The position numbers and the translations under genes were made by a program. Positions 1 to 28,600 of a stretch of DNA of 28,600 nt are shown in pieces (position 1 is the stretch's first letter; each line of letters starts with the position of its first letter). This DNA comes from a virus. The notes below the pieces were generated by a model. It had not been told where the DNA came from. It saw nothing but the letters and a program-made list of their open reading frames with translations, and searched no databases. The stretch is taken from the IMG/VR virus record IMGVR_UViG_3300023178_000201, positions 1 through 28,600 of that record; one strand, 5' to 3'.

Positions 1-3000
1 GGATCTATTTCGGCTCTAGGTTTTCCAGATTGAGACAGTTGCTTTGCTTGTTCCAGTTTACCTTGCCACATCTTTAAAAGTCTTGGTCGATCAGACTGCA
101 TGTCTACAGGTTTAATAAAATTAGGAACTACTCCTTCAGAATAAAAGCCTGCCTTTTCATCTCTATTAAAATTCTTGTCCCCCTTTTTTAATATTTTCGT
201 ATATGCATCCATGGCAAAATATTCGCCAGATGCAGTTCCACTTAAAATTGAATTTTTTGTATTAAACCCTAAATTCGCTTCTGACCAACTATTAAATGCC
301 TCTATACCATTTTCTTTAACCCATTTATTAACTTTAGTTTTTAAAGATTTAATATTTTTAAATTCGATTGCATCAGTGCCAATCTGAAAAGTTCCCGAGG
401 TTGACATTCCTGGCTTGATTCTTTGTTTTAATTGTGGAAATGCATTGATTATGGTTTCCCAAGGAGTTTTGCCTGAAGAAGCACGAATTTGGTCAAAGGT
501 ACTGTGAATCTCTTTATTTTTCCATCTTCTTTTTCCTGTAAAGTCTGCGATTTTATCAAAATTTCTATTAGCTCCCCCCTTCATAGAAGGATCGTTTACA
601 TCTGCGCCTTTAGCTCTTTCTGAATATAAAATATCAGTCTTATTCTCGTAATCGTACTCTCCCTTGCCATAAGTAAATCTAGTTGTTGTCCCAGTTTTCT
701 TATCAGTTACTTGTATAATGGGTAATTGACCATTCCATTCATTAGTAGTCTTCATGCCTTCAAACCCTTTAATATCTTTTTGGGCTCTTGCAAGATTTTT
801 CTCTCTAATTTTTTTAAGTAATTCTGGCTTGCCCCAAGTAGACACAAAATTTGGTATACTTTTAGCAGCATTTGGAATTATTCCTTGTGCAGCCCTCTTT
901 TTGCCACCAGCAGCAATAGCTTTACCTCGTCCAGCTACTGTTCCAGCGGCAGCCTTCTTTTGTCTTTCATAGTCTTTGTATTGTTTTAATTTTTGATAAC
1001 CTCCTCTAGAATCAATAATTTTTTTAATTCCACTACCAATGTTTTTCTTACTTGATGAAACTTTAGCGTCTACATTTTTACCTTTTCTTGAATCTAAATT
1101 AAATGCAGTTGTTAAGTTTTTTTGAAACTGAGGCCCAGGAAAATCCCAAGAACCAGTGCCAGAATCGTTTTTTACAACTGAATTTTTAATATAATTTAAA
1201 GTTGCTTCAAATACTCTTCCTGTAAACTGAGGTCCTGCAGACTTATCTAAGTAATCGCTTAATGGTCCAGAACCCTTAACTTGTCCTCTTGGTACTATAT
1301 CTCTTGCCACATTATCCAATGCAGAAGTCATATGTTTATCAACAATAGCATGGAAGCTAGAACCTTTTGATTGGGCTAGTCTGCCTATAGTGAAATTTCT
1401 CGCTTCAAATTTTGTACCTTTAAAAGCTGGAGGAACTGTCCCATCAAAAACTGAAGATGCAGCGACGGTTTGGTTTTTACCTGTTTCTGATTTGCCAGCT
1501 TCTGCAGTTATAATGCCCTGTCCAGCAGCATTTAATTTAATTACCTGGTTATTAGTTGCTTTAAAATTTGGTACATAACCAGCGGAGTAAAAACTCTTGG
1601 TGCCATAATCAGCGGCAGAATAAAATTTTTCAATGCCATTGTCATAATTAAATCTTTGCATCATGTCTTGATTTAAGATTGCAGATGCACCTGAACCCAT
1701 AAAGTTTTCAATAATTACTTCGTCTGTATTTGCAACAATGTCTTGTTTTTGGGTTTTTGTTTTTTGAAAGTTTTTAATTAAAACTGGAGAAGCGGATTTT
1801 GAAGCTCCACCAACTCCACGATTTATATCTCTTTGCTCCGCAGCAAAAGAGGGAATAAATTTTGAATCAGTATTTGCAGGAACATAACCTTTAGACATAC
1901 CCAAGTCTCTTCGGCCTGCTGCAGCTCTCTGTCCTCTGCCTGCAGGAACTACAGTGCCTTGGCTTGAAATTGCAATGTTGGCTAACGTAGACGACGAAGC
2001 GATTTTTTTTAAGAGCGCATCTTGCGCTATTCGTTCGGTCGTTTGTTTTTTTAAGACGTTGAGTATTGCCTGCTCTTTTGCCACTTGGGTTGTAGAGTCG
2101 CTTAGAATTTTCTGTCGAACCCCCTCTTCGCTCATTAAAATTTGAAGAATTGCAGCTTGCAAACCCTCTTGACGTTTAGTTTCACTGTTGATTGAAAAGA
2201 TTGACTTCAATGCGCTCGCACCTTGTTGAGCGACAAATGCAAATAATTTAATAAATGCCCCGCCGATAAGCACCATGCCTGGACCACTAACAAAGCTTCC
2301 AATGCCTTTAAGTAAAGTTTTACCAATATTAGTACCTGTATCTTCGCCAACTAAGTTATTAAGTCCATCTGCTAAACTTTTAACTGTTTCTAAAACTTTT
2401 TCAATACCTGGACCAAGAGTCATTTCCCCAAGATTCGAAGCAAGTTCTTTAATCGAAAGACCTGTTTGAGTCATTAGTGCAGACATAGTCTTATTAAGCT
2501 CTGCGTTTCTTTGAGTTGCTTCGTTAGTGCTGCCATTTGCTGTTTTTAAAGCCTGGTCATATATACTAAATTCGCTATTTAAATCTTTAATTAAAGCTTT
2601 TAAATTATTAACCTGAAATACTCCAGCAATTAATTCGTCTGTGGCAGCTTTTTGAGCGTCGCTTAATGTATCATAACCTTTAGCGTAATCTTGCAGAACT
2701 GCCATACCTGAACGGAATGCGCCCGTAGCATCTTGAGTAGCAATGCCAATTTCTTCTAATGCTTCCCTGACACTAGATCTTTGAAGTCTTGTAAAAATAC
2801 TCTTAAAAGAGTTCCCTATAACTGCTCCCCCTCGAGCAGTTTGTTGCTGTACACTCGTTACAGCCGCTAATAATTCGTTAAATTCAACTTTTGCAGCTTG
2901 TGCAGTTGCACCTGCACGGGCAAGTCCATCAGCTAAATCTTTTGATGAAACAGCAAAAGCAGCGTCAACATTAGCAAGTCTATTGACTATATCAGAAGAA

Positions 3001-6398: not shown

Positions 6399-6412
6399 AC
6401 ATATTAATACAC
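6399..6412 (-). promoter_or_regulatory. Late promoter-like element GTGTATT-N7-ATG
   Basis: GTGTATT (6406-6412), then 7 nt, then the ATG at 6398. It matches the spacing at the portal, 64-aa, tube-2 and 26169 genes, and it decides the start. If it acts as a -10 element the transcript would begin at or beside the ATG. Confidence 0.5.
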
Positions 6413-7270: not shown

Positions 7271-7284
7271 TTTTATATATACAC
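7271..7284 (-). promoter_or_regulatory. Late promoter-like element GTGTATA-N7-ATG
   Basis: GTGTATA (7278-7284) lies 7 nt from the ATG at 7270 and directly abuts the T-tract of the preceding terminator. The leader would be zero to a few bases and no Shine-Dalgarno is present. Confidence 0.55.
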
Positions 7285-11657: not shown

Positions 11658-11685
11658 ATTTACCCTTTTGTATATTATACAATAT

Positions 11686-11692
11686 CATACAC
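11686..11692 (-). promoter_or_regulatory. Late promoter-like element GTGTATG, longer leader
   Basis: GTGTATG lies 28 nt before the ATG at 11657. Here a Shine-Dalgarno-like AAAAGGG precedes the ATG, the contrast expected if close-set elements give leaderless mRNAs and this one does not. Confidence 0.4.
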
Positions 11693-11716
11693 AAAAGTCT
11701 ATTTCTTGTGAAAAAC

Positions 11717-11749
11717 AAAAGGGCCTGCGCGCGAGGCACAGACCCTTTT
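11717..11749 (-). terminator. Rho-independent terminator after capsid gene
   Basis: Minus strand: AAAAGGGTCTGTGC, a CTCGC loop, then GCGCAGGCCCTTTT, a 14-bp stem with two G-T wobbles, followed by GTTTTTC. It ends the major capsid transcript. Confidence 0.92.
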
Positions 11750-11772: not shown

Positions 11773-12906
11773 TTAGATCTTGATACCGTAGAGGGCCCGA
11801 TTGTCAAGAATAACTCGACCTTCTTCCAGGCTTCCGTAATATCCGATCTTGCCTTGACGAACGCTGTATTGATCATCAACAGCCAACGAGAACTCAGAAC
11901 CAGTGTCTGAATCAGTTGCAACGGCTCTCCAAAGAGAACTAACTGAAGAATCAAGACCGATGATGATTTCATTTCCGTCGTCAGTAGCGTCAAAGCTGTC
12001 CACAGCTTTTTTGTTGCCTGCAGCAGTAATCATCGATCCAAATACGTCATTAAAACGCTGACCTTTACCGAGTTCAGAGAACTCTTGAAGGCGAATTCCA
12101 AAGAATTCAGGAATTCCAGCGTTACGCCAGAGACCTTCACGCATAGAATCGGTTGCAGCGATTGAAGAATCAGCTGTACCACTAGCATCGCCAACCCGAA
12201 CACCAGCAGAGGTATTAACAGGATTGTAAGCGAGCGAGCGAAGGTTTTCGATAACCTCAGGAGATACCAACAAGTCAGTTACTCCACGGCGAGCGCCGTC
12301 AGCAGGAGTTCCACCATACCAGGACTTATGAATTCTCTTGGAGAGAGTAATAAGCTTATTGAAATCTTCTAACATGAGCTTGCCATGATCAGATGAGTGG
12401 ATATGAGAGACGCCATCGGTTTTAGCTTCCGCAAGAGCGCCAAGAAGAAGATTAGCAGAAGTAGTTTCTTGCTTGATCATGATTTCTTGGGCGATACGGG
12501 TCATGCTTTTTCCAATAACGTCCATGCGGGACTTTGCAGCATAGCGTTTTTCGAAGCTGATAGCACTATCAAGACGATAAGTGGTAAACTTCATTTCGCT
12601 ATGGGTGGGTTGTACCTGATTGGTTGGTAAACCACCAGCAAGAGATTGACTCCAGGTGTAAATGTAATCTTCGTCAGTTACATCGTAGTAGAGGTCAAGA
12701 GGAAAGCTGGGGTTATCTTCAGAATTAAAGGTAAAACTTTGAAATTTGTTGGCAAGCGTAGGAGCTTGATTAACAACTTCTGCGAGTACGGGAGCGATGA
12801 ACTTTGCCAAAGCGGCTTGTGCTTCATAAGCAATATCACGATTGCTGGAAGCCATTGCTTTTACAAGTTCTACTTGCTCGTCAGTGCGTTTGAGTGTAAT
12901 TTCCAT
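11773..12906 (-). CDS. Major capsid protein (HK97-fold)
   Basis: 377 aa. It forms the icosahedral shell. Evidence: position after protease/scaffold and decoration genes; N-terminal helix region (1-40), a central region with FTTYRLDSAISFEKRYAAKS (E-loop/N-arm-like, about 108-127), and C-terminal domain with RVILDNRALYGIKI at the end. Arg codons are CGT/CGC, GC is above the neighbours, an AGGAG lies 12 nt before the ATG, and a strong terminator follows: all signs of very high expression. The first residues look unprocessed, so whether the N-terminus is trimmed by the phage protease cannot be judged here. Confidence 0.88.
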   Translation of the reverse strand: MEITLKRTDEQVELVKAMASSNRDIAYEAQAALAKFIAPVLAEVVNQAPTLANKFQSFTFNSEDNPSFPLDLYYDVTDEDYIYTWSQSLAGGLPTNQVQPTHSEMKFTTYRLDSAISFEKRYAAKSRMDVIGKSMTRIAQEIMIKQETTSANLLLGALAEAKTDGVSHIHSSDHGKLMLEDFNKLITLSKRIHKSWYGGTPADGARRGVTDLLVSPEVIENLRSLAYNPVNTSAGVRVGDASGTADSSIAATDSMREGLWRNAGIPEFFGIRLQEFSELGKGQRFNDVFGSMITAAGNKKAVDSFDATDDGNEIIIGLDSSVSSLWRAVATDSDTGSEFSLAVDDQYSVRQGKIGYYGSLEEGRVILDNRALYGIKI

Positions 12907-15301: not shown

Positions 15302-15317
15302 AAAAATTTATACACAC
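15302..15317 (-). promoter_or_regulatory. Late promoter-like element GTGTATA-N7-ATG
   Basis: GTGTATA (15309-15315, preceded by GT) lies 7 nt before ATG at 15301. No Shine-Dalgarno fits in between. It probably drives the protease, decoration and capsid genes down to the terminator at 11717. It contains TATAAAT, close to the T4 late motif. Confidence 0.55.
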
Positions 15318-15320
15318 ATT

Positions 15321-17384
15321 TTAGTCTTTTTTCTTGCTGTGAAATAAAATTGCAGCGGGATACTCGCTTAATTCATGAACAGAAGAAATTTCAGATATCT
15401 CTTCAATGATTCCTAAATTAGATATTTTATTAAAATCTTCTATGCATGCCATACCTACATCAACCCATTTTTCTTGAGTTGACGACAGGACAACCGACTG
15501 CACAAGTTGATCTATAGATTTGCCTTGTTCTTCGGACAGCTTTCTTTTTTTGATTTTCTTTTTCATGCTTTTATTTAATTCAGACCTTAAATCCTCAATT
15601 GCATAAACAGTTTCCTGTATTGATTTTTGGCTATAGCTTGCAGTTGCTCCAGTAGGTCTACCGACCTCTTGAGGAACTTTATTTTGAGGTTGACCAGGTT
15701 GCTGGCCAGGCTGCTGACCTTGCTTAATCATTTCGCTTTTATTTTTCGCGTCCTGTTTAATCTTTTCTTTTGACAGTTTTTCGTCAACTTTTCTTTGCTC
15801 TTCTGCCCCAGGAGGCTCTATAGAAGGCACTCCTCCGACTAAAGGGTTATACATACCTTGCTCTCTCTGCCTTACATATTCTTCTTGATTTTTTTCCAAC
15901 TGTTCAATAGATGGGTATACTCCTGTTTGTATAGTTCTAAGGCCATCTTCTGGAGTCAATATACCCAATTCAATTAATCGGGTAGCAATTCTTTGTAATT
16001 GAACTTCGTCCTTAATGTCAATATCTTCAAATTTTGCTTCAGGAAATTGCCGAAAGCCCATATTCCTGCAAACCATCTTAATCTGAGGCTGCAAGAAATC
16101 TTGAATAAACGCGTTCCTAGCTTCTTTTAATCTTTCTAAAAATATTTGAGCCTTGACTTGGGTATTTGAGAACTTTTCTTGACCAACAATAACATTTTGT
16201 AAAGCATCTCTAATATCCGCGTTTACTATTTCATACTTTTCGGGACCAAGAATTTTATTGATTTCGGGAATAACAAAATTAGCTTTGGTTGTATAGTCGC
16301 TCACTAATACCCTCCCAACGCTTTCATTTAAAAATAAAGATTGCATTGCGTTTAAATTGGTTGGGTTTATACCTCCTTTATCTGGTTCTGCACCCATGGT
16401 AATTAATAGAATTACATTTTCAACAGTTCTACTAATTGCTTGATCCACTTTCTTTAATTCGATTTTCCAGTTTAAGTCATCTAATACTGGAAAGCCAAAA
16501 GGAATTGCAAATGGCTCGTAATCTTGTTTTTTATAAAAGCTATAATTTAATTTAGTTGGATCAAGTTGAACATAAATGCCTTCTCTAGAAAATCTTTTTT
16601 CTTTTATTTCTTTTTTAGTTTTTTCTGGTAAAGCATCATAAAATTCTTTATCTTCCTTGGTTTTTGGATTGCGCAACCTATCTAATTCATACTCTGACAA
16701 AACCTTTTTATAGTCTCCTTCTTCAAATGCTGTAGTTTTAGTAATAACGATATCATATGGATTTAAAAGTATATACTTTATGGGAACCTGACCAAGAGGC
16801 AAGGAAGAAGAAGCTTTTGATTCAGCGTAAATAGTAGAAATCTTCTTTAAATCTTCTTTATCAAATTTTCCATCTACTCTATACAAAAATACATTACCAG
16901 ACCTATAGTATTCCCTAAAATATTGATCTTTTAAATTCCACACTTTAATTTTATTTAACCAGCGATCAATAAATTGTCTAGCAGGCTCAGTACCCCCTTC
17001 TAAATGTATTTCTGAGTTAGCAAATTCGGCCATTATATCTATAGCGTTTCTAAAAATCGCAATATTGGCATAAGCCTTTTGGCATAATTCTATTGCATCT
17101 TGTATTGAAACTCCTGAAGAGCCTGACTCAAAAGGTAATATTCCTTCTCTAATATTTGCGTATTTATTTTGCTTGCGTCCTTTATATGTAGAATTGCTTT
17201 TTTTAACTCCGCCCCTGCCTGACGAAGGTTGGCTTCTAGATATCGTTGAAGATTGAGAATAATAACTTTCGCCGCAAAACTTAGGCTCAGTAGGATCTTG
17301 ATTTTGTATTAAATCAGATAGGTTATTATTTGGTTGCTCAAATTTATTCCAATAATCTGAACGTTTAGTATATTTTCTTGCCAT
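15321..17384 (-). CDS. Portal protein
   Basis: 687 aa. It forms the dodecameric ring at the packaging vertex. Residues about 90-420 carry the portal pattern: SGVSIQDAIELCQKAYANIA, then FRNAIDIMAEFANSEIHLEG, VWNLKDQYFREYYRSGNVFL and IKYILLNPYDIVI. The C-terminus (about 540-640) is Gln/Pro/Lys-rich and low-complexity (GQQPGQQPGQPQ) and ends KKKD, longer than a minimal portal. It directly follows large terminase and has its own GTGTACT element 7 nt before the ATG. An upstream AT-only hairpin separates it from terminase. Confidence 0.88.
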   Translation of the reverse strand: MARKYTKRSDYWNKFEQPNNNLSDLIQNQDPTEPKFCGESYYSQSSTISRSQPSSGRGGVKKSNSTYKGRKQNKYANIREGILPFESGSSGVSIQDAIELCQKAYANIAIFRNAIDIMAEFANSEIHLEGGTEPARQFIDRWLNKIKVWNLKDQYFREYYRSGNVFLYRVDGKFDKEDLKKISTIYAESKASSSLPLGQVPIKYILLNPYDIVITKTTAFEEGDYKKVLSEYELDRLRNPKTKEDKEFYDALPEKTKKEIKEKRFSREGIYVQLDPTKLNYSFYKKQDYEPFAIPFGFPVLDDLNWKIELKKVDQAISRTVENVILLITMGAEPDKGGINPTNLNAMQSLFLNESVGRVLVSDYTTKANFVIPEINKILGPEKYEIVNADIRDALQNVIVGQEKFSNTQVKAQIFLERLKEARNAFIQDFLQPQIKMVCRNMGFRQFPEAKFEDIDIKDEVQLQRIATRLIELGILTPEDGLRTIQTGVYPSIEQLEKNQEEYVRQREQGMYNPLVGGVPSIEPPGAEEQRKVDEKLSKEKIKQDAKNKSEMIKQGQQPGQQPGQPQNKVPQEVGRPTGATASYSQKSIQETVYAIEDLRSELNKSMKKKIKKRKLSEEQGKSIDQLVQSVVLSSTQEKWVDVGMACIEDFNKISNLGIIEEISEISSVHELSEYPAAILFHSKKKD

Positions 17385-17398
17385 AGATTATAGTACAC
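17385..17398 (-). promoter_or_regulatory. Late promoter-like element GTGTACT-N7-ATG
   Basis: GTGTACT (17392-17398) lies 7 nt from ATG at 17384, and TATAAT overlaps it. No -35 hexamer is recognisable at 16-18 bp, which separates it from the sigma70-like sites. Confidence 0.5.
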
Positions 17399-20593: not shown

Positions 20594-21651
20594 ATCGCTT
20601 CATCTCTTTCTATACCCAAAACTCTCGCTTTCCACTGAGGCATACCCTCTATCCTTTCTGCCTCTTCCTTAATAATTTCCTTTTGCATTTCTGCCATCTT
20701 AACCATAATATTTCTTTCCTCTTCTTCTTGAAATAGCTTAACTAAAGAAAGCATACTGGCAGTATTTTGCTGCTTAGATTGCAGTCTTTTTGAGCGGTCT
20801 CCCTGAAGTTTTGTAATAGCTCTATCAATTCGAGTCACGCATTGATTATACTCTTCGCTTTTAGTTTTTAAAATTTCAGTCAGGCGCATAGTCAGATCAG
20901 TTTCTTCTTCGGCAGCATTAAACATATCGTTTAGTTTAAGTTTTTGACCTTCGATTTGTTTTAAATTAATGTAATCCATGCAAACATTAATATACATATT
21001 AATTTCGTCTGGAGTTAAATCAGGCTTGTCCCAACACGCCCTAGTAAACTCTGCCTCAAAAAGCAATCTATCTTCATAACAGGTATAATTATTAATCTGA
21101 GAAGTAAACCTTGGAGACGATAAAATGTTTATTAAATTTTCTGCGCAGACTCTTTCTTGTCGAGTTAATTTTTCTTCGCTAAGATTTTTCCCTACGGCCT
21201 CATTAATTTTTTTAACCGCAGATACAACTGAGCAAGGAGGGTTATATTTAACACCTCTAGCAGTATCTTCTTCAGCGATTCCTTCTGGCGCATTATCTCG
21301 AATAAAATCTGCAATGACTAACGTTTCTTTGCTTAAAGGGGTTACGCCTTGATCAGGGAAAATAATTTTAGAGATCTGAAAAGCATTCATTCCATCTTTT
21401 GCATATGCTTTTATAAAACTTTCTTGCTCTGAATTAAGATTTATATTTTTTGCTGGAGCAGCTTTAGTAGTATCAAAAGACTGACCAATTTCAATCAGAT
21501 ATTCCCTCACTAACCTACCTTGCATTGTTCTTCCGTCAAGCTTTTCATCCATAAATACAGAACGGGTCATTTGTCCCAAATCTGAAATTTTATCTTTATT
21601 ATTTTCAATAAAGTTTTTTTGGTCCGAGGAGAGTTCTATTTTTTTTGTCAT
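20590..21651 (-). CDS. Putative terminase small subunit with duplicated N-terminal helical repeat
   Basis: 353 aa. The first 120 residues hold two related units: LSSDQKNFIENNKDKISDLG (7-26) and LNSEQESFIKAYAKDGMNAF (72-91). Each is followed by a helix-turn-helix-like part (MTRSVFMDEKL / ISKIIFPDQGV) and a closing helix. The C-terminal half is a charged coiled coil (ITKLQGDRSKRLQSK, FQEEEERNIMVKMAEMQKEI). DNA-binding repeats plus an oligomerising helical region fit a small terminase, as does the place upstream of large terminase, but two nuclease genes intervene and it is long for the family. The name is inference. Confidence 0.5.
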   Translation of the reverse strand: MTKKIELSSDQKNFIENNKDKISDLGQMTRSVFMDEKLDGRTMQGRLVREYLIEIGQSFDTTKAAPAKNINLNSEQESFIKAYAKDGMNAFQISKIIFPDQGVTPLSKETLVIADFIRDNAPEGIAEEDTARGVKYNPPCSVVSAVKKINEAVGKNLSEEKLTRQERVCAENLINILSSPRFTSQINNYTCYEDRLLFEAEFTRACWDKPDLTPDEINMYINVCMDYINLKQIEGQKLKLNDMFNAAEEETDLTMRLTEILKTKSEEYNQCVTRIDRAITKLQGDRSKRLQSKQQNTASMLSLVKLFQEEEERNIMVKMAEMQKEIIKEEAERIEGMPQWKARVLGIERDEAI

Positions 21652-22358
21652 TGCAGGAATATATCTTTAGTAGCGATAATATGGCGGGCCTTTTCTTTAA
21701 ATTGTTTTTTAAGATTTTTAATTTGATTATAACCAGCTTTTCTGCCAGTCTCTGAAGTTTTATACCCCATTTTGATTGCAACTTCTTCCTCGGACTGATG
21801 CAGGATGAATAGCATTTCATATATGATAAACTGCCTTTCTGGAAGAATTTTTTTCATTTCTTGATGAAGTCTTTTTTCTGGAGTTTGAATTTCTGTATGA
21901 ACATCTTGAAGTTCGCGGTACTGAACTTCTTCTGCGTCAATTGAGAGGGGAAGTTTTATGTCATAAGCGCTTTTTTTTGTTTTTTCCCATTTTAAAAATA
22001 AAGGGCAAGAAGAATCTTGTGCGCCAGATTTAGTGAATGAACAGGCCCCGTCTTCTCCGCCTGAGCCAGATAAATTAAAAGGGCAGCTCATGCAAGGCCT
22101 AACAAAGTTAGAATAATTATTTCTTAATATGTTTTTTAATTGATTAGATATTGTTTTGTTTAGCCAAGGCTTTAAAGGTTTAGATTGGTCAAACTTATCC
22201 CATTTTACATAAACATGTGATGATATAATTTGTATAACATCGTCGAAATCCATCCATGATATAGACGTTAAAAACCATTTGTGCCTACGTTTTGAAATCT
22301 CTTCAATAATGATTTCATGACAGTCTTCGTATGTAAGTTTCTTTTTTTTATCCGTCAA
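21648..22358 (-). CDS. Phage sigma factor (sigma70-family/ECF-like) with Cys-rich insert
   Basis: 236 aa. Residues about 33-80 look like sigma region 2: WMDFDDVIQIISSHVYVKWD then KPLKPWLNKTISNQLKNILR. Residues 168-222 look like region 4: PERQFIIYEMLFILHQSEEE and VAIKMGYKTSETGRKAGYNQ, a helix-turn-helix. Between them sits an insert with four cysteines (C89, C92, C106, C118) that could bind zinc. It should redirect host RNA polymerase to phage promoters. It overlaps the zinc-ribbon gene by 11 nt and the next gene by ATGA. Its operon has a sigma70-like promoter, whereas the structural genes have a different GTGTATA motif. Confidence 0.75.
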   Translation of the reverse strand: MTDKKKKLTYEDCHEIIIEEISKRRHKWFLTSISWMDFDDVIQIISSHVYVKWDKFDQSKPLKPWLNKTISNQLKNILRNNYSNFVRPCMSCPFNLSGSGGEDGACSFTKSGAQDSSCPLFLKWEKTKKSAYDIKLPLSIDAEEVQYRELQDVHTEIQTPEKRLHQEMKKILPERQFIIYEMLFILHQSEEEVAIKMGYKTSETGRKAGYNQIKNLKKQFKEKARHIIATKDIFLQ

Positions 22359-22704
22359 TATCTACCGTTCCCTTTACAGGCTTGCATTCTTCGACGCAGT
22401 CTTTTATTGCGTCGCCAGTTAAGCTTTTGCGCCTTTTCCTAGGGATTGATGATCCTAATTTTTCTTCTTTAATTACAGACCCTAAGGTCGTTTCAACGTA
22501 ATCATTATTAATTATTTCATAATCCAATTTTTGCAAGTGAGAAAAAGATATTTTAGGTTGTTCGGTTGGGTTTTGTTCTGTTTCTTCTTTTGGTTGAGAG
22601 ACTTGGACCCCAGCAAAAGATGTTCCGCAATTTGTACAAAAATTGGGTCTTGCAGAAGAGTATTCGTGCTTGGTTCCACAGTGCTGACAAAAAGTAAAGG
22701 CCAT
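22348..22704 (-). CDS. Zinc-ribbon protein coupled to sigma factor
   Basis: 118 aa. The N-terminus carries a C-x2-C...C-x2-C ribbon (C6, C9, C23, C26: FCQHCG...FCTNCG). A disordered Gln/Pro/Glu linker (36-50) follows, then a mixed region with a basic PRKRRKS patch (about 88-94). It overlaps the sigma gene by 11 nt, so the two products are probably made together, and a partnership in transcription (co-activator or RNA polymerase adaptor, like T4 gp33 with gp55 by analogy only) is plausible. The function is not shown by the sequence. Confidence 0.65.
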   Translation of the reverse strand: MAFTFCQHCGTKHEYSSARPNFCTNCGTSFAGVQVSQPKEETEQNPTEQPKISFSHLQKLDYEIINNDYVETTLGSVIKEEKLGSSIPRKRRKSLTGDAIKDCVEECKPVKGTVDIDG

Positions 22705-22712
22705 TACATATA

Positions 22713-22741
22713 ATAGTAAATAAGAATAAAAATTCTAGCAA
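22713..22741 (-). promoter_or_regulatory. sigma70-like promoter of zinc-ribbon/sigma operon
   Basis: TTGCTA (22736-22741), 17 bp, TACTAT (22713-22718), then 8 nt to the ATG at 22704. No late GTGTATA motif is present, which fits expression before the late genes. Confidence 0.55.
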
Positions 22742-22744
22742 ATA

Positions 22745-23377
22745 TTAAATTATTGAATCAATTTTTAAGTAGCCTCCAAGAACGTGCGCAGACTGTTCAG
22801 CAGAATGAATTTGGCGAGAGGTAAGTTTTTTCTTGGTTTTGACAAAATCTAATCCCAAAAAACCGACAACTCTGCCATGTATATCCCTGATGGGGAAATT
22901 ATACACACTTTTCACACCTTTTTTTACTAATAATTCTTTTAATAAAGGCTTCGGACACAAATCAATATCTTCTAGAGCATATATTTGTCCATCAATTAAA
23001 GTTTTAATATAATCATTAAAGTTGGAAACCCTATATTCTCCAGGGTTATTGCATTCAAATGTGATCCCTTCGGATACAGTTTCATAAGTGCAAGTAAACT
23101 TAGTAATCGGTAACCCAGAGGAGAAATAACTACCATTACTAAACTCGAATACATAGCTTCTATCTGCCTGAAATACTTTTCTGAAGTCAGCGAGAAAATC
23201 ATTTATTTCTTGATTTGTTTGGGTAAGCACTTCCATTTGTTTTTGTGCTTTTTCTGCGGGAGATAGTTTTTCCCGATTATAATTCAGCTGAATTTTGCTC
23301 TTAATCCAAAAACCTACCAATGTAGTTATTAAGGTAATAATAGAAACAATTAAACTTTCATATTGTAAAATATTCAT
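22745..23377 (-). CDS. Membrane-anchored GAF-like domain protein
   Basis: 210 aa. One N-terminal membrane helix (residues about 9-27: IVSIITLITTLVGFWIKSK), a helical linker (30-75), then a GAF-like sensor domain (about 50-205): FRKVFQADRSYVFEFSNGSY, later VKSVYNFPIRDIHGRVVGFL and GLDF, and a final helix SRQIHSAEQSAHVLGGYL. No output domain follows. It starts inside the spanin-candidate stop (ATGA), so it belongs to the lysis-like cassette. It may bind a small ligand or measure a membrane state to time lysis; that is inference. Cytoplasmic side for the GAF domain fits the Lys-rich flank after the helix. Confidence 0.65.
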   Translation of the reverse strand: MNILQYESLIVSIITLITTLVGFWIKSKIQLNYNREKLSPAEKAQKQMEVLTQTNQEINDFLADFRKVFQADRSYVFEFSNGSYFSSGLPITKFTCTYETVSEGITFECNNPGEYRVSNFNDYIKTLIDGQIYALEDIDLCPKPLLKELLVKKGVKSVYNFPIRDIHGRVVGFLGLDFVKTKKKLTSRQIHSAEQSAHVLGGYLKIDSII

Positions 23378-23658
23378 TTTTTAAACGCACCACTAATTAT
23401 ACATGAAAGCAATGTAACCGCGCAGATAATAAGTGTGATAATAACAGGTTCCCTATATACATAGATTTTATTATTTAATGGTTGTTCACATTTTTCAAAT
23501 TCCTTTTGTGATATTTTTCCATCTAAATTAACGTCAAACTCTTGAAATTGAGTGTTAACAATTGGGTCTTTTGGCTTGGGGATAAAAGAATTCTTTTTTA
23601 CCAAAGCTGTAGAGCAACCTATCAAAAACAAGCTAAATACTATAAATGTAATTTTCAT
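23374..23658 (-). CDS. Unimolecular-spanin-like lipoprotein with EF-hand
   Basis: 94 aa. A lipobox LIGC with Cys15 ends a signal peptide (residue 16 is Ser, favouring the outer membrane). A single C-terminal membrane helix (about 71-90) ends AFKK. This N-lipid/C-TM architecture is that of u-spanins (T1 gp11), which bridge and fuse the outer and inner membranes in lysis. Between them is a canonical 12-residue EF-hand loop D42-x-N44-x-D46-G-K-I-S50-x-x-E53. It overlaps both neighbours by ATGA, directly after the holin candidate. At 94 aa it is short for a u-spanin, with only about 55 residues to span the periplasm. Alternative: another Ca-binding membrane lipoprotein. Confidence 0.6.
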   Translation of the reverse strand: MKITFIVFSLFLIGCSTALVKKNSFIPKPKDPIVNTQFQEFDVNLDGKISQKEFEKCEQPLNNKIYVYREPVIITLIICAVTLLSCIISGAFKK

Positions 23659-24086
23659 CTTGCTCGACTAGGTATAGCATAAAAACCAATAACCATAAAA
23701 CATAAATCCATAAATGAAGTTAAAAGCAGGCCTCCTGTTAACTGAACTTTTTCCCAAGATTTATCTCCACCAAATAAAAAAGAGAAAAAACCTCCGCTAG
23801 TAGGTTTATCAACAATAACATCATATTGTATATTTGGGTTCATTGCGTAATATATCATTAAAAAACACATAGTAAATGTAATTGCTAAAAAGAGCATTCT
23901 ACGAGTAACCTTAACGAATGGGTCTGAAGCTTGCTTATTTTGATTATCAATTAGAGCACTAAGCATCTGACTATCTCTTGCAGCAAGAATCATCTGGTCT
24001 TGTCTTTTTTGTTCAATCCAGTAATTTAAAAGGTTAGCGCCTACTTTAATGCCTGCGCCGATGATCGTATTCAAAATGGGGCCCAT
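23655..24086 (-). CDS. Putative holin
   Basis: 143 aa from ATG at 24086. A GTG at 24101 in the same frame is disfavoured because a GTGTACA element ends 8 nt before 24086 and overlaps that GTG. The protein has an amphipathic N-terminus, an internal Lys/Arg-Gln stretch (EQKRQDQM), then two membrane helices (about 66-84 and 118-137). It ends in Arg and Ser. Small multi-helix proteins next to spanins are usually holins, which permeabilise the inner membrane at a set time. No endolysin gene lies beside it in this window. Confidence 0.55.
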   Translation of the reverse strand: MGPILNTIIGAGIKVGANLLNYWIEQKRQDQMILAARDSQMLSALIDNQNKQASDPFVKVTRRMLFLAITFTMCFLMIYYAMNPNIQYDVIVDKPTSGGFFSFLFGGDKSWEKVQLTGGLLLTSFMDLCFMVIGFYAIPSRAR

Positions 24087-24101
24087 ATAAATTATGTACA
24101 C
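24087..24101 (-). promoter_or_regulatory. Late promoter-like element GTGTACA-N8-ATG
   Basis: GTGTACA (24095-24101) is 8 nt from the ATG at 24086. It places the lysis-like cassette under the same signal as the structural genes. Confidence 0.5.
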
Positions 24102-24107
24102 ATTTAT

Positions 24108-24135
24108 TTGTTTTTTTTGCTTTTAATAATATTAT
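24108..24135 (+). promoter_or_regulatory. Weak sigma70-like promoter for plus-strand accessory operon
   Basis: TTGTTT (24108-24113), 16 bp, TATTAT (24130-24135), 5 nt before ATG at 24141. It is back to back with the late element of the minus-strand cassette. The -35 match is poor. Confidence 0.35.
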
Positions 24136-24140
24136 AGTTA

Positions 24141-24359
24141 ATGAAATTCCGAATAAACCCTGCGCACATTAAAATTATGGAAACGTTAGCAAAACATATG
24201 AATTCTTATGAATCCGTAACATGGCTAGGAACGCCTAGGAAAGAGCTTGACAACAGAAGTCCGTACGACATGATGAAAAGGGTTAACTTGGCAAGAGTGC
24301 AAGCCTTACTGCATGAGGATATAAAAGCTCTTAAACTCAAAAAGAAAAAAAGGAGCTGA
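24141..24359 (+). CDS. DUF2384/MbcA-ParS-like small protein
   Basis: 72 aa. TWLGTPRKELDNRSPYDMM (27-45) followed by VNLARVQALLHEDI fits the pattern of the ParS/MbcA/Xre antitoxin toxin-binding domain: W-L-x-T-P...L...S-P-x-D...V-x-x-L-L. A basic tail KLKKKKRS ends it. No partner toxin of the RES type is recognisable nearby. It begins the plus-strand operon with the CGRGKCCP protein and the sulfotransferase. The stop codon lies inside a perfect hairpin. It may be an orphan antitoxin that neutralises a host toxin, or an unrelated phage family with a similar fold. Confidence 0.5.
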   Translation: MKFRINPAHIKIMETLAKHMNSYESVTWLGTPRKELDNRSPYDMMKRVNLARVQALLHEDIKALKLKKKKRS

Positions 24360-24371
24360 TCACAGCTCCTT
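24350..24371 (-). terminator. Minus-strand terminator overlapping a plus-strand stop
   Basis: AAGGAGCTG, loop ATCA, CAGCTCCTT: perfect 9-bp stem. On the minus strand it is followed by a T-rich run (TTTTTTTCTTTTT), whereas on plus the following GTGTTACTTT is weaker. It would stop minus transcripts from the GT29 gene after they cross the sulfotransferase gene. Confidence 0.7.
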
Positions 24372-24381
24372 GTGTTACTTT

Positions 24382-24570
24382 ATGAAAAACAAACAATCAC
24401 ATTTAGAAAATAAAATTATATTAAGTTGCGGAAGGGGAAAATGTTGCCCAGAAATAATTAAAAAAAATAATAATGAATTTATCATTAAAGACGATTACAA
24501 TGGAGAGGTAAAATTAAATTTATCTCAAATCAATTTATTAGAAAAAGCGATTAAAAAAATAAAAAAATGA
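24382..24570 (+). CDS. Small Cys-rich CGRGKCCP-motif protein
   Basis: 62 aa from ATG at 24382; a TTG 12 nt upstream is less likely. ILSCGRGKCCPEI (residues 18-30) holds three cysteines near a beta strand, then FIIKDDYNGEVKLNLSQINL and a Lys-rich helix. I associate this CGxGxCCP arrangement with small phage proteins of unknown function. A metal-binding or redox role is possible. The stop overlaps the sulfotransferase start (ATGA), so the two are co-translated. Confidence 0.6.
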   Translation: MKNKQSHLENKIILSCGRGKCCPEIIKKNNNEFIIKDDYNGEVKLNLSQINLLEKAIKKIKK

Positions 24571-25277
24571 ATATTCTCGAACCTCTTGAAATGGTTCTTA
24601 TTACTCCTCCCAGAATGGGAACGAGGGCAATATCAGACTTGCTTATGAGAAAAGGGCGGATTATTGACCATGCAAAAATAGACAATCCTCATCACGAAGG
24701 AAAAATAACAAGAGGAACATTATTCCATACCTTTCCAGCATGCTTAAGAAATGCTCCAAATATGTTTAACCTTGTTGAAGAAGGAGTAAAAAAAGAACTC
24801 GCTCCTTTATTTAGAGAACGTTATTCTTATTACACTTGGGCAGCAACCATGAGGCATCCTGTTGCGAGATATGCGAGCATGGTAAGCTGGCACTTAGAAT
24901 TAGAAGACGAAGGATCAAAAAAATTAGCAAAAGGATGGATTGATAAACCTCAAACATGTTTTCATATGCGCGAGTATGAGAGCTTGCTTAATATTGATAA
25001 GCTCATACATATGGATTACTGGATTAGGACAGAACATATGGCAGAAGATATTATGAACATACCCTGCCTTAAAGAAAAAATTCTAGATGAAAATAATCCT
25101 CTTCCAGCTAAAGCTTTTGCAGAAACAATCCAGAATAATACTTATTCTTCTTCTTACTATAAAAATTATTTTAGCGTAAATGATGTTCCGAGAAAAACTT
25201 GGAATTATTTTTATTTTGCATACAAAGAAATCTATGATAAGTTTGGATATGAAGAATATCGAATCAAAGAACGTTAA
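24567..25277 (+). CDS. Sulfotransferase-family protein
   Basis: 236 aa. A 5'-PSB-like loop TPPRMGTRAI (13-22, PAPS-binding) and a 3'-phosphate motif RHPVARYASM (96-105; R96 and S104 are the key residues) are visible, and the C-terminus has the frequent YKEIYDKFGYEEY ending. It would transfer sulfate from PAPS to a glycan or other hydroxyl. It is cytoplasmic, with no signal peptide. The gene converges on, and overlaps by 14 nt at the 3' end, a sialyltransferase-like GT29 gene, suggesting linked modification of a surface glycan or of virion glycans. Confidence 0.7.
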   Translation: MNILEPLEMVLITPPRMGTRAISDLLMRKGRIIDHAKIDNPHHEGKITRGTLFHTFPACLRNAPNMFNLVEEGVKKELAPLFRERYSYYTWAATMRHPVARYASMVSWHLELEDEGSKKLAKGWIDKPQTCFHMREYESLLNIDKLIHMDYWIRTEHMAEDIMNIPCLKEKILDENNPLPAKAFAETIQNNTYSSSYYKNYFSVNDVPRKTWNYFYFAYKEIYDKFGYEEYRIKER

Positions 25278-26094
25278 TTAATCCTTTTTCAGCCCAAGAA
25301 TCAAAAACAATCGCTTCTTCTTCATAGTTAATTTGCTCATGCAGGGGAGATTTGTCTTGTCTTGTTACTAACTCACAAATATTATTATCCTGAAAATCTA
25401 AACCTATAACAGAAACATCATAATTTAAAACATTTTTAAAATAATATATTGTTGAGATACCCACCGATGGGTATCCAACTGTTTTTGTCGCGATTTCATT
25501 AGATACATATGAAGGAACCATTGTAAAATCTTGATTTGTATCATATAAGTCTGAACTTTTTAAGTCTTTCCATATTTTTTGTTCTTCTATATTTTCAATT
25601 CCCAATCTTTCTAAAAGTAATAATTTTATAAATCTAACAGAGTCAAATAAGTATCCATTTTTTTCACAAAAGTAATATAACCATGCTTGCATGCTTGTAA
25701 ACTGATCTGATGGAAGAAGGATAATCTTATTCTCCACGTTCGGAAACATTCTTCCTTTTGCCCAACTAATAAGCAGAGGGCTTGCGCTATATACAACATG
25801 GGTAGTTTTCGAGCCAAGAATTTTCTTATTCTTCTCGGAGGGAGTCATAAAATCATCCATCCTACAGACATAATCAAAACTATCAATTAGCTCTCCTGCA
25901 TTTTTATGCTTTAATGAATGATTATTTCCTACTATGCAAATTTTTTTCTTTTCTGTGAATATTGGACTATTTTTCTCTATCCACATTAGTTCCGAGCCAG
26001 CCTGTTTAAAATAATTAAAATAATTACCATATTTTGTTTTAGCTTCAGCGTTAATTCTGTCTTGATCGGTTTTATAATTCTCGAACATATTCAT
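25264..26094 (-). CDS. Glycosyltransferase family 29 (sialyltransferase-like)
   Basis: 276 aa from ATG at 26094. Earlier starts (TTG 26130, ATG 26106) lie inside the promoter. An L-like sialylmotif is seen in ICIVGNNHSLKHKNAGELID then SFDYVCRMDDF (52-82). An S-like motif is in VGYPSVGISTIYY (206-218) with SVIGLDF (228-234), and a VS-like H-x-x-x-x-Y-E is at H252 (LHEQINYEEE). GT29 enzymes transfer sialic acid from CMP-sialic acid; phage members might use related sugars. There is no signal anchor, so it works in the cytoplasm. It faces the sulfotransferase gene tail to tail. Confidence 0.75.
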   Translation of the reverse strand: MNMFENYKTDQDRINAEAKTKYGNYFNYFKQAGSELMWIEKNSPIFTEKKKICIVGNNHSLKHKNAGELIDSFDYVCRMDDFMTPSEKNKKILGSKTTHVVYSASPLLISWAKGRMFPNVENKIILLPSDQFTSMQAWLYYFCEKNGYLFDSVRFIKLLLLERLGIENIEEQKIWKDLKSSDLYDTNQDFTMVPSYVSNEIATKTVGYPSVGISTIYYFKNVLNYDVSVIGLDFQDNNICELVTRQDKSPLHEQINYEEEAIVFDSWAEKGLINVL

Positions 26095-26101
26095 TGTTTC
26101 T

Positions 26102-26130
26102 ATCATATTACTTATATAAATAAAAGTCAA
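26102..26130 (-). promoter_or_regulatory. sigma70-like promoter TTGACT-N17-TATGAT
   Basis: TTGACT (26125-26130), 17 bp, TATGAT (26102-26107), then 7 nt to ATG 26094. It decides the GT29 start and predicts a leaderless mRNA. Confidence 0.7.
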
Positions 26131-26154
26131 TCAAATTCATTAAATTATTTTGCT

Positions 26155-26168
26155 GTGTATATACTTAT
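26155..26168 (+). promoter_or_regulatory. Late promoter-like element GTGTATA-N7-ATG (plus strand)
   Basis: GTGTATA (26155-26161), 7 nt, ATG 26169. It is the only plus-strand copy found and matches the minus-strand ones exactly in spacing. Confidence 0.5.
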
Positions 26169-26456
26169 ATGAGGTTTTTATTGATAATATTATTTTTTTG
26201 TAATTGTTCATTAAAAGAACCTAACTTAAAACCAGAAGACACTAAATTTTCTGAAGAAGAAAAGAATTGGGAGCAGATTTACGCTCTTGAGCTTGCTGCA
26301 GCCCTAAAAAACCAAGATGATTTAGCTTTTCACTTTTTCTGGCCTTACTATATGTGGGAAAGATATAAAAATAAATGTAAGAAATATAATCCGAGTCATT
26401 ATGACTCATGCATATGTCAACAGAAAACTCCTTTTGAGTCAGATAGTCGCAACTAA
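26169..26456 (+). CDS. Small exported, possibly lipid-anchored protein
   Basis: 95 aa. A short signal-like hydrophobic N-terminus (residues 3-12) runs into Cys11 and Cys13; the residues before them (FFC, CNC) do not make a canonical lipobox. The mature part is charged, with FHFFWPYYMWERYKNKCKKY and two more Cys near the C-terminus (CICQQK). It carries a late-type element, so it should be made with virion or lysis proteins. Candidate roles include a lysis accessory or superinfection-exclusion protein; nothing in the sequence decides. Confidence 0.5.
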   Translation: MRFLLIILFFCNCSLKEPNLKPEDTKFSEEEKNWEQIYALELAAALKNQDDLAFHFFWPYYMWERYKNKCKKYNPSHYDSCICQQKTPFESDSRN

Positions 26457-26517
26457 CTAGATTTTACCGCGATTTTACGCCATTTTTAGTTGGCATGGCT
26501 TATGCAATATATATTGT

Positions 26518-26898
26518 ATGAAATATTCACTTATAAATTCTGGTTTTGACACCTCTTGGTTGTCAGATTTTTTTAATGTTAACGAACCCACTCTTAATAA
26601 CAGAGTTTGCAGTTTTAGTTCTGGGACAGATATTGAAGAACTAGATGATGGATATGTTATTCGGGTAGCGGTTCCTGGGATGTCTAAAGAAGATTTAAAA
26701 ATATCTTTGGATGATGGTTTGGTTAAAGTTTCGGGAGAAAAGAAAATTAGTAAGGGTATGACCTCAAAAGTTAACCGCGAATTCTCCACGAAGATCAAAA
26801 TTGACGCAAAAAACTCAAAAGCAACTGTAAACAACGGAATTCTCGAAATTCAATTAAAACAAGAGAAAGGCGCGCGAAACACCATAGAGATAACCTAA
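26518..26898 (+). CDS. Hsp20/alpha-crystallin small heat shock protein
   Basis: 126 aa. A short N-terminus (1-33) precedes an alpha-crystallin domain with YVIRVAVPGMSKEDLKISL (46-64), VSGEK (71-75), NREFSTKIKID (86-96) and the conserved A-x3-NGIL (102-109) in KATVNNGILEIQL. It is an ATP-independent holdase that binds unfolding proteins. Cyanophages and other marine phages carry such genes, perhaps to help virion folding or host proteostasis. It is followed by a strong terminator. No clear promoter class is found upstream; a GG-N10-GC resemblance to sigma54 at 26491-26506 was rejected. Confidence 0.88.
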   Translation: MKYSLINSGFDTSWLSDFFNVNEPTLNNRVCSFSSGTDIEELDDGYVIRVAVPGMSKEDLKISLDDGLVKVSGEKKISKGMTSKVNREFSTKIKIDAKNSKATVNNGILEIQLKQEKGARNTIEIT

Positions 26899-26978
26899 TG
26901 TATTCGAATAAGGCCCGATTATTTTTTTGGTCGAGCGTTTTTCCAAATAACGGGATTCTGTTTCTATACTGAAAACTA

Positions 26979-27043
26979 CCACCCCCGCCCATTCCTCAGA
27001 GAGTCGCTTTTGCGAAATTCCAAAAAATGGGGGGGGTTTTTTT
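26979..27043 (+). terminator. Terminator after hsp20
   Basis: ACCCCCGCCCATT pairs with AATGGGGGGGGT (one bulged G), closing a loop with its own small TCGC/GCGA hairpin, and is followed by a T7 tract (27037-27043). The 26899-27048 gap contains nothing else that I can support. Confidence 0.8.
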
Positions 27044-27048
27044 GTAGC

Positions 27049-27351
27049 CTAAAAACTTTTTTCAGGCTCAAACCTGACTGCATACCAATCATGCGGGTTC
27101 ACAACTTGGTTATTCATCATGGGTTCACCACCTTTGATGCTAAAATCTGCGTCAGCGATGTTTCTTAATCGCTCTCTGGTTGTGGCTGTTGGCCAACCCG
27201 CCCAACTGGCTTGAATTAATCCGTCAGGAGTACGCTTAATAATCTTATGTCCATAAAGCCAAACATTGTTTCCGTCTGTTATCGTGTTGTCAACCTTTTT
27301 TGCTTTGCCCGCAAGAAATGCTTCTTTAATCTGTTGTGAAATTTTAGTCAT
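27049..27351 (-). CDS. Small phage protein with WAGWPTATTRERLR motif
   Basis: 100 aa. WLYGHKIIKRTPDGLIQASW is followed by AGWPTATTRERLRNIADADF and a C-terminal Trp/Tyr motif (HDWYAVRF). I associate this kind of GWPT-TTRERL segment with small proteins of unknown function scattered in phage genomes. It starts just after the stop of the 60-aa gene at 27353 (same unit), driven by the promoter before 27535. No enzyme motif is visible. Confidence 0.6.
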   Translation of the reverse strand: MTKISQQIKEAFLAGKAKKVDNTITDGNNVWLYGHKIIKRTPDGLIQASWAGWPTATTRERLRNIADADFSIKGGEPMMNNQVVNPHDWYAVRFEPEKSF

Positions 27352-27352
27352 T

Positions 27353-27535
27353 TTAGTTGCTTTCTTCTACATTGTTAACGATAGAAACTCTATCACCATT
27401 TTCTCTCAATTCTTGTTGAATATTCTTAGCAATCTTAAGAGCCTGAACTTCACACTTAGCATTATCAATTAGCTTTCCGAATAATGAAATGTTGAGCCAC
27501 TCGGAAAGGTTTGGGTTTACTTCAATTTTAATCAT
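27353..27535 (-). CDS. Small protein, paralogue of the 27805 gene
   Basis: 60 aa starting MIKIEVNPNLSEWLNISLFG. It shares MIKI, PN, W, NI, F, KL and AL-x2-AK at the same positions with the 63-aa protein at 27805-27996, so the two are duplicates. The C-terminal part (about 40-60) diverges. No function is recognised. It has a well-placed sigma70-like promoter (ATG 6 nt from the -10) and is co-directional with the next gene at 27049. Confidence 0.55.
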   Translation of the reverse strand: MIKIEVNPNLSEWLNISLFGKLIDNAKCEVQALKIAKNIQQELRENGDRVSIVNNVEESN

Positions 27536-27541
27536 ATAAAG

Positions 27542-27570
27542 AATCTAATGCTTTTAACTGATAAAGTCAA
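27542..27570 (-). promoter_or_regulatory. sigma70-like promoter TTGACT-N17-TAGATT
   Basis: TTGACT (27565-27570), 17 bp, TAGATT (27542-27547), 6 nt to ATG 27535. Upstream, two A7 tracts 11 bp apart (27583-27589, 27594-27600) sit where an UP element would be. Confidence 0.7.
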
Positions 27571-27623
27571 GCCCATAGAGCATTTTTTTCGCATTTTTTT
27601 CGGCCCGCGATTTTCGTGCCAGT

Positions 27624-27815
27624 TTAACTCTTTAACTCGAAAATACCTTCCTGGATCTCTACTAGCCTGTCGGAATTCGCAAGTACACAATCAACCGATA
27701 AAATTCTATCATTCAGCTTGGGCTTATAGTAAGGACTATCTTTCCTTAAAATAATAAGTCTTCTATCTATGGCAGTAAGTACGAATGGATTTTTTGCTTG
27801 AAGTTCAGCGAGCAT
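27624..27815 (-). CDS. Small unknown phage protein
   Basis: 63 aa (MLAELQAKNPFVLTAIDRRL at the N-terminus), mixed charge, beta-like, no recognised motif. The start overlaps the 27805 gene by 11 nt, so coupling with that gene is likely. It is the third gene of the unit that starts at 28100. Confidence 0.5.
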   Translation of the reverse strand: MLAELQAKNPFVLTAIDRRLIILRKDSPYYKPKLNDRILSVDCVLANSDRLVEIQEGIFELKS

Positions 27816-27996
27816 CTTCTACAACTATAACACGCCTTACGCCATTGTCAAAGTAAAATTGTTGCTCGTTGTTTCGGGCGAGTTCTTTAGCTTTTCTTAA
27901 AGCCTCTGACCTTGTATGCACTTGCTCAACTAACTTGTTGAAAGCAAAAATGTTGAACCAATTACAGAAGTTAGGGTGTGTTTTTATCTTAATCAT
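27805..27996 (-). CDS. Small protein, paralogue of the 27353 gene
   Basis: 63 aa starting MIKIKTHPNFCNWFNIFAFN. It aligns from end to end with the 60-aa protein at 27353 (MIKI, PN, W, NI, F, KL, AL-x2-AK), with a different C-terminus (RRVIVVEDAR). Its ATG lies within the stop of the 35-aa membrane peptide (ATGA). Unknown function; tandem duplication with divergence is typical of early phage genes. Confidence 0.55.
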   Translation of the reverse strand: MIKIKTHPNFCNWFNIFAFNKLVEQVHTRSEALRKAKELARNNEQQFYFDNGVRRVIVVEDAR

Positions 27997-28100
27997 GATG
28001 GGTTTATGAGGTTAGCAATGAAAGCACATCCAAAAATCAAGATTGTGCCAATAACAAATGGGACGAACACAATAGTAAACATATCAAATAATTTTCGCAT
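27993..28100 (-). CDS. 35-aa single-pass membrane peptide
   Basis: MRKLFDMFTIVFVPFVIGTI then LIFGCAFIANLINPS. A short basic start and one hydrophobic helix of about 22 residues. Its stop overlaps the following start (ATGA) and a TTGACT-N17-TAGATT promoter ends 6 nt before its ATG. Both support it being a real gene despite its length. The role is unknown; it may act on the host inner membrane early in infection. Confidence 0.6.
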   Translation of the reverse strand: MRKLFDMFTIVFVPFVIGTILIFGCAFIANLINPS

Positions 28101-28106
28101 AATAAT

Positions 28107-28135
28107 AATCTATAAGGTTTTAAGAAAAAAGTCAA
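28107..28135 (-). promoter_or_regulatory. sigma70-like promoter TTGACT-N17-TAGATT
   Basis: TTGACT (28130-28135), 17 bp, TAGATT (28107-28112), 6 nt to ATG 28100. The -35 contains the stop codon of the upstream gene. Confidence 0.7.
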
Positions 28136-28317
28136 GCAAAAACCTTGAGACTTTGCTCTCTTTTTCCTGTAAGTTCAAGCAATTTCGCCTCAATATCCAT
28201 CTGAACGGATGCCAAAGCATTGGCAGAAGTCATGTTTCCCGCTCGAATTTCTTTGACCTTTTGTTCGTTTAACTTTTTAAGCATTTCTGTGAGGTTATCT
28301 ATCTTTGTTGTAATCAT
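28132..28317 (-). CDS. Small helical phage protein
   Basis: 61 aa, almost wholly helical and charged (NLTEMLKKLNEQKVKEIRAG, then ASVQMDIEAKLLELTGK). No known motif. Its stop codon is inside the -35 of the next promoter, and its own promoter (TTGACT-N16-TACTAT) lies 6 nt before the ATG, so it should be an early, leaderless gene. Function unknown. Confidence 0.55.
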   Translation of the reverse strand: MITTKIDNLTEMLKKLNEQKVKEIRAGNMTSANALASVQMDIEAKLLELTGKREQSLKVFA

Positions 28318-28323
28318 GGTTTT

Positions 28324-28351
28324 ATAGTATAGTAATGTTAAAAAAAGTCAA
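28324..28351 (-). promoter_or_regulatory. sigma70-like promoter TTGACT-N16-TACTAT
   Basis: TTGACT (28346-28351), 16 bp, TACTAT (28324-28329), 6 nt to ATG 28317. It again overlaps the stop of the gene upstream. TATACT at 28326-28331 is an alternative -10 with a 14-bp spacer. Confidence 0.6.
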
Positions 28352-28600
28352 GCCACAAGTGCAGTATAATCAGAAAAGTTCATATACGCTTGCAAGTTTC
28401 TTTGTCTGCCTAATGCACGAAGTCCAATCACGCCTGTTCTGTTTCGGTTAACTTCACCCGTTTCTGTTTCAAATTCTTCTCTTGAGTAATCATCTCTTGA
28501 CACGCCTTTGGGATCAATTCGGGCAATTACTTCTTTTGTGATGTTGCCCCAATATCCTTCATCGGGCGGAACAATCTCGATTGAAAAATGTTCAAGAACT
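28348..28600 (-). CDS. C-terminal part of an unrecognised phage protein
   Basis: 83 codons plus stop, open to the right edge. The visible part includes IEIVPPDEGYWGNITKEVIA, IDPKGVSRDDYSREEFETET and GVIGLRALGRQRNLQAYMNF, ending FSDYTALVA. It is charged and conserved-looking, but I do not recognise the family. The stop TGA lies in the -35 of the next promoter. Confidence 0.6.
   Translation of the reverse strand, partial: VLEHFSIEIVPPDEGYWGNITKEVIARIDPKGVSRDDYSREEFETETGEVNRNRTGVIGLRALGRQRNLQAYMNFSDYTALVA

Follow-up and report, generated by a model that had tools for sequence, protein, structure and literature searches.

We examined the heads of transcription units in a 28.6 kb viral record (IMG/VR record IMGVR_UViG_3300023178_000201, positions 1 to 28,600; hereafter the window), a fragment of a phage, and in the family of its relatives. 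Very probably, the -10 element of the promoters at these heads is held about 6 nucleotides (nt) before the ATG of the first gene, the mRNA starts on or near the A of that codon, and the first gene is translated leaderless. The occurrence of leaderless mRNAs at many unit heads, behind two unrelated promoter classes and throughout a diverged family, is well supported by sequence comparison. In E. coli numbering the -10 element spans -12 to -7; with a gap of 6 nt, +1 would thus fall on the A of the ATG. In the model proposed here, RNA polymerase would start on, or a few nt from, this A at unit heads. Early units would depend on host sigma70-type promoters (TTGAC, 17 nt, TANNNT), and late units on GTGTANNNN without a -35, presumably read by host polymerase carrying a phage sigma-like protein; the operon with the gene of this protein would in turn begin with a sigma70-like promoter, at 22704. 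Genes further down a unit could not be leaderless, and many have Shine-Dalgarno sites.

The minus strand of the window carries a tailed-phage structural block with a terminase (phrog_2), with small genes at the high-coordinate end. No tRNA genes were found in the window, and Megablast and tblastn searches of a phage collection returned no close cultured relative. Scanning IMG/VR with the window terminase yielded at least 596 stretches encoding a relative, and 80 loci were retained; eight long related records (60-195 kb) and four loci from genome bins were also taken in, the family data set amounting to 85 records and 1.88 Mb. The DNA has an A+T content of about 65%, and a generic promoter scan of the window remained near the shuffle background; thus, the test had to be one of geometry across the family. 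Pooling all heads in an information profile, unaligned by motif, diluted the signal too far to be of use.

Early promoters in the window and across the family

Four early promoters of sigma70 type occur on the minus strand of the window. The outermost (28318..28351) combines TTGACT at 28346-28351, a spacer of 16 nt, TACTAT at 28324-28329 and a gap of 6 nt to ATG 28317, which opens a 61-amino-acid gene (28132..28317). The next (28101..28135; TTGACT 28130-28135, spacer 17, TAGATT 28107-28112, gap 6) leads to ATG 28100 of a 35-amino-acid open reading frame (27993..28100); this frame is weak as a gene because of its shortness, and its promoter and ATG are also present in the related record G010. 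Before ATG 27535 of a 60-amino-acid gene (27353..27535) stands the third (27536..27570; TTGACT 27565-27570, spacer 17, TAGATT 27542-27547, gap 6), with promoter, gap and start codon all kept in the orthologs of L008, L009 and L010. The fourth (26095..26130; TTGACT 26125-26130, spacer 17, TATGAT 26102-26107, gap 7) heads ATG 26094, and an in-frame ATG at 26106 falls within its -10. An initial annotation of the window had described these four as TTGACT, a spacer of 16-17 nt and a -10 placed 6-7 nt before ATG, and each element was located exactly. It had also proposed that two of the -35 hexamers are built from the stop codon of the upstream gene; this is borne out, TTGACT supplying the TGA that closes gene 28348-28599 and, at the second promoter, gene 28132-28317. 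A sixth site had been missed (27816..27851, minus strand; TTGACA-16-TATAGT, gap 8 to ATG 27815); it is located inside the upstream gene, and the same site is found in the relative L008.

The fifth annotated site (22705..22741, minus strand; TTGCTA 22736-22741, spacer 17, TACTAT 22713-22718, gap 8) is a promoter-like head for the operon of the sigma-like gene, which opens at ATG 22704 with a 118-amino-acid gene (22348..22704). Here the annotated distance of 8 nt stands and the -10 is conserved among orthologs, but TTGCTA is a weak -35 and is not conserved. An alternative -10, TATTAT, overlaps TACTAT and lies 5 nt from the ATG. Among 24 orthologs of this head, TANNNT is present at 5-8 nt in 22, the late motif in none (0/24) and a Shine-Dalgarno in none (0/24). 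The features of a sigma70-type promoter (a TTGACA-like -35, a TATAAT-like -10, a spacer near 17) are complete at four window sites and, given the weak -35, incomplete at the fifth; the placement of TA-led leaderless genes, with the first T of the -10 about 12 bp before the start, is seen at all five (gap 6-8). For each of the five ATGs, a search over 25 nt found nothing resembling a Shine-Dalgarno, in agreement with the initial annotation's statement that none fits.

The initial annotation had suggested tabulating -10-to-ATG distances, and over the 85 family records this gives a spike at exactly 6 nt. Of 388 non-redundant TTGAC/TANNNT sites, 51 have this distance to the first ATG of the reading frame; 99 lie 4-8 nt from it, and the spacer measures 17 nt, the hallmark of sigma70 promoters, in 87 of the 99. 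No distance spike is produced by the reversed motif in the family records. Upstream of non-redundant called genes, the full early motif occurs at 5-8 nt 97 times, versus about 2 in shuffled sequence and 6 when shifted by 10 nt; similarly, the eight long records hold the early pattern 104 times at 5-7 nt versus 17 at 20-22 nt. The overlap of stop codon and -35 recurs as well: of 110 early promoters that have a neighbour on the same strand, 21 draw part of TTGAC from the upstream TGA (orthologs not removed), with a peak at an exact gap of 31 nt. In the records G005, G008 and G001:C4 and C12, many early promoters share spacer words between -35 and -10, e.g. AAAACTA, possibly a regulator site or the result of recent duplication.

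The late GTGTA class and a candidate sigma factor

The second class consists of GTGTA followed by A/T-rich bases and is represented by 157 non-redundant sites in the family. The distance from GTGTA to the ATG is 9 nt at 73 of these and 10 nt at 44 (117/157). When GTGTA is read as GTG plus a TANNNN hexamer, the hexamer ends 5-6 nt short of the ATG, which reproduces the geometry of the early class; no conserved -35 was found in the late class. In the window, GTGTA and its A/T-rich bases stand 9-11 nt before the ATG. On the minus strand, GTGTACATAATTTAT (24087..24101) adjoins ATG 24086, GTGTACTATAATCT (17385..17398) adjoins ATG 17384 of a 687-amino-acid gene in portal position (15321-17384), GTGTATAAATTTTT (15302..15315) adjoins ATG 15301, and GTGTATATATAAAA (7271..7284) adjoins ATG 7270; on the plus strand, GTGTATATACTTAT (26155..26168) adjoins ATG 26169. 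A single, weak case is the late-type motif GTGTATTAATATGT (6399..6412, minus strand), which adjoins ATG 6398 within the end of the upstream gene. We call the class late because of the structural genes that it heads. Strong terminator-like hairpins lie directly before late promoters at 11716-11750 and at 7289-7315 (minus strand), the latter directly before GTGTATATATAAAA; thus, late units appear separated by terminator-promoter pairs. The family motif, GTGTA plus A/T-rich bases, differs from the T4-type late promoter motif TATAAATA and has apparently not been described before.

A sigma-factor-like protein encoded at 21648..22358 (minus strand) is the candidate reader of these promoters. Sigma-70 region 2 (Pfam PF04542) scores above the cut-off, with 28 of 29 family members matching; the match to region 4 is weak and present in 3 of 29. 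The Foldseek neighbours of its structure model are nearly all sigma factors, with ECF-type folds nearest and the ECF factor SigH of M. tuberculosis as best match (E 3.1e-3, probability 1.00, low TM-score). Four cysteines of an insert, C89, C92, C106 and C118, are invariant; the insert perhaps binds zinc, between regions 2 and 4. The gene is found in most relatives covering the region, many with a GTG or TTG start. The protein probably reads the late promoters. Its own operon is headed by a -10-like hexamer without the late motif, which fits a cascade from host sigma70 to phage sigma to GTGTA promoters, the last step of which we infer.

Start codons, rival explanations and the reach of the rule

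Where translation begins can be judged from ortholog pairs. Substitutions over codons 2-9 are concentrated at third positions (values for positions 1/2/3 of.128/.075/.457 behind early promoters and.177/.098/.518 behind late ones), and no codon periodicity exists in the 24 nt upstream of the ATG. Upstream frames are mostly closed by a stop without a further start codon, and the codon at promoter distance is ATG at 227 late heads (GTG at 21, TTG at 4) and at 61 early heads (GTG at 2). Thus, translation starts at, or very near, the listed ATGs. This bears on a reading where the promoters are real but transcription would begin a few nt into the gene and translation at a later in-frame codon, giving ordinary short leaders. 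Sequence does not fix the exact +1, some sites have gaps of 7-10 nt and some genes have internal Met codons; yet the strong third-position bias begins right behind the ATG, and ATG is strongly preferred at a fixed distance, so that we regard such a displacement as very improbable. Still less credible is that the -10-like words are chance products of A/T-rich DNA, with the true promoters further upstream and leaders devoid of Shine-Dalgarno sites. The base composition and the flat generic scan of the window would suit this explanation, but no spike appears in the shuffled, shifted or reversed controls, and the 17-nt spacer is selected; it is largely refuted.

Two further proposals concern what lies behind the leaderless placement. 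Leaderless initiation could be a habit of the host that the phage follows; this concerns origin, is compatible with the leaderless reading, and we take it as a serious possibility, if somewhat short of an even chance. One relative sits in a Verrucomicrobiales bin, and several genomes from the phylum of this bin abound in the TTGAC/TANNNT/ATG arrangement (52 vs 6, 42 vs 0 and 36 vs 0 for the reversed motif), with a modest signal in the sampled regions of two of four such genomes. On the other hand, the four bins carrying relatives disagree on the host, contigs of the Halobacteriovorax bin have Shine-Dalgarno sites at heads, and in the sampled part of one high-count genome Shine-Dalgarno usage is ordinary. 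As for the late class, GTGTA might be a -10-only promoter for host sigma70, used once some other phage factor has made a modification; the middle and late promoters of phiYS40 reportedly comprise one -10-like element each and work without a phage sigma. The presence of the sigma-like gene in most relatives covering the region and the lack of a GTGTA motif at its own operon make this rather unlikely. Finally, the interface of the first gene may be fixed as leaderless in both temporal classes, two unrelated promoter classes having converged on one -10-to-ATG distance, often with the -35 in the upstream stop; we give this convergence close to, though not quite, an even chance. If true, it would point to a gain for the phage from leaderless translation as such, e.g. 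because the phage alters host translation initiation.

Shine-Dalgarno usage follows gene position. At 4-12 nt before the start, such words occur in 3.8% of divergent heads, the chance level, and are enriched behind a neighbour, with 19.0% at gaps of 16-40 nt and 15.7% at gaps of up to 15 nt (shuffles about 5.5% and 7.5%, respectively). Such a word precedes 1 of the 245 genes that have a strict promoter of either class, versus 162 of 869 other short-gap genes. A capsid-region gene inside a unit (11773..12906, minus strand) has a Shine-Dalgarno in 24 of 26 orthologs, in contrast with the heads.

How far the rule reaches was assessed over apparent heads. A strict promoter at leaderless distance is found at 30% of divergent heads, 15% of heads lying more than 40 nt from a same-strand gene and 27% of genes 16-40 nt behind a neighbour; for any TANNNT at 5-7 nt the same three classes give 50%, 29% and 45%, versus 10-15% in shuffles (divergent heads 14.5%). 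These percentages are probably underestimates because the gene caller takes the first ATG, which misplaces genes starting with GTG or TTG and adds noise to the head class, and because it counts long gaps as heads.

Several points weigh against leaderless initiation as proposed. The signature is found at no more than half of the apparent heads and does not amount to a universal rule. The mutual exclusion of promoter and Shine-Dalgarno is partly mechanical, since the -10 occupies the positions concerned. A leadered counter-example exists at 11658..11717 (minus strand), where GTGTA lies about 30 nt before ATG 11657 and is followed by AAAAGGG; among the orthologs GTGTA is upstream in 27 of 28, mostly 20-41 nt away. 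The structure model of the sigma-like protein is of moderate confidence (pLDDT 70). The sequences show the geometry, its conservation, a coding start at the ATG and a difference of signals with gene position; the 5' ends are inferred, as are the pairing of sigma factors with motifs and the temporal names. The initial annotation's claim of leaderless initiation is strongly supported at the heads that it described, by geometry, coding conservation from the ATG, the lack of Shine-Dalgarno words and recurrence in the diverged family behind both promoter classes; extending it to a rule at unit heads was an overstatement. About half of the 11657 orthologs have a ribosome-binding-like word, and two (L088 and L089) have GTGTA at 9 nt. 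This case shows that the late promoter class can give a leadered mRNA, and the leaderless distance elsewhere therefore looks selected rather than forced.

Known systems and host clues

Phage T4 has late promoters with a -10-type element only and encodes a sigma-like protein, gp55. The family resembles T4 in its -10-only late class and its phage sigma-like protein; however, the T4 motif is a different one, Shine-Dalgarno leaders precede T4 genes, and the family protein is nearest to ECF-type folds. With a similar gene caller, positions 1-50 kb of T4 show TANNNT at 5-7 nt at 0 of 40 heads and a Shine-Dalgarno at 20 of 40, and the same stretch of phiYS40 shows 5 of 21 for each. In phiYS40, a Thermus thermophilus phage, most middle and late mRNAs have no leader (PMC3594737). 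The late motif of the family, which lacks a -35, is likewise placed so that mRNAs would be leaderless, and the heads in 1-100 kb of phiYS40 partly have TANNNT at 5-7 nt; unlike phiYS40, the family also has a leaderless-placed TTGAC early class, the late motif GTGTANNNN and an encoded sigma-like protein. No sequence kinship of the window with phiYS40 was detected by Megablast or tblastn in the phage collection. TA-led leaderless genes are described across bacteria, with the first T of TANNNT some 12 bp ahead of the start codon (PMC3160421), and in Deinococcus a -10 motif 6-7 bp before open reading frames, read in the same leaderless way, has been established by experiment (PMC12340547). These genes of Actinobacteria and Deinococcus-Thermus share the -10 placement of the family. 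Unlike them, the family belongs to phages, its early sites mostly have a clear -35, and a second, phage-specific motif is placed alike. In Sulfolobus, as cited in PMC3160421, proximal genes are leaderless and distal genes use Shine-Dalgarno sites. Compared with the division as reported there, the family shows a trend in the same direction, which is significant, with a head share from a minority to half and with 11657 leadered; unlike the TATA/BRE elements of Sulfolobus, its promoters are of bacterial sigma type, and the division is incomplete.

Leaderless genes, the Sulfolobus division and phiYS40 have all been described, and the kind of arrangement is thus known. The apparent novelty lies in one phage family having both its early and its late promoters leaderless-placed, together with a late motif that seems undescribed and a candidate sigma of phage origin; no papers on these phages were found in the open-access literature, where most subscription journals are absent. 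The pattern provides a sequence rule for transcript starts in a common uncultured phage group, corrects start-codon and promoter annotation, and adds a late motif with a candidate sigma factor. It would also represent a second phage system, beside phiYS40, where leaderless translation may operate in many transcription units.

Clues to the host are mixed. The four genome bins with relatives, among them Halobacteriovorax, Flavobacteriaceae and Verrucomicrobiales, disagree, and a second contig of the Halobacteriovorax bin that bears early promoters is likewise of phage origin. Bacteroidota were considered and rejected, the early pattern not being over-represented in the Bacteroidota sample. Spacer-like DNA matches in 291 genomes of one phylum were only weak and chance-like, apart from the phage contig itself. 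The phylum of the Verrucomicrobiales bin as host source is a lead only; in the sampled regions of four of its genomes the signal is modest at most, and one looks ordinary. In G312, G357, G443, G375 and others from the phylum of G004, which includes the Verrucomicrobiales bin, TTGAC-18-TANNNT-5..7-ATG exceeds the reversed control.

Two window genes near the high-coordinate end have recognizable products. The gene behind the fourth early promoter (25264..26094, minus strand) encodes a 276-amino-acid protein with a match to glycosyltransferase family 29 (sialyltransferase-type), and 26518-26898 on the plus strand encodes an Hsp20-like protein.

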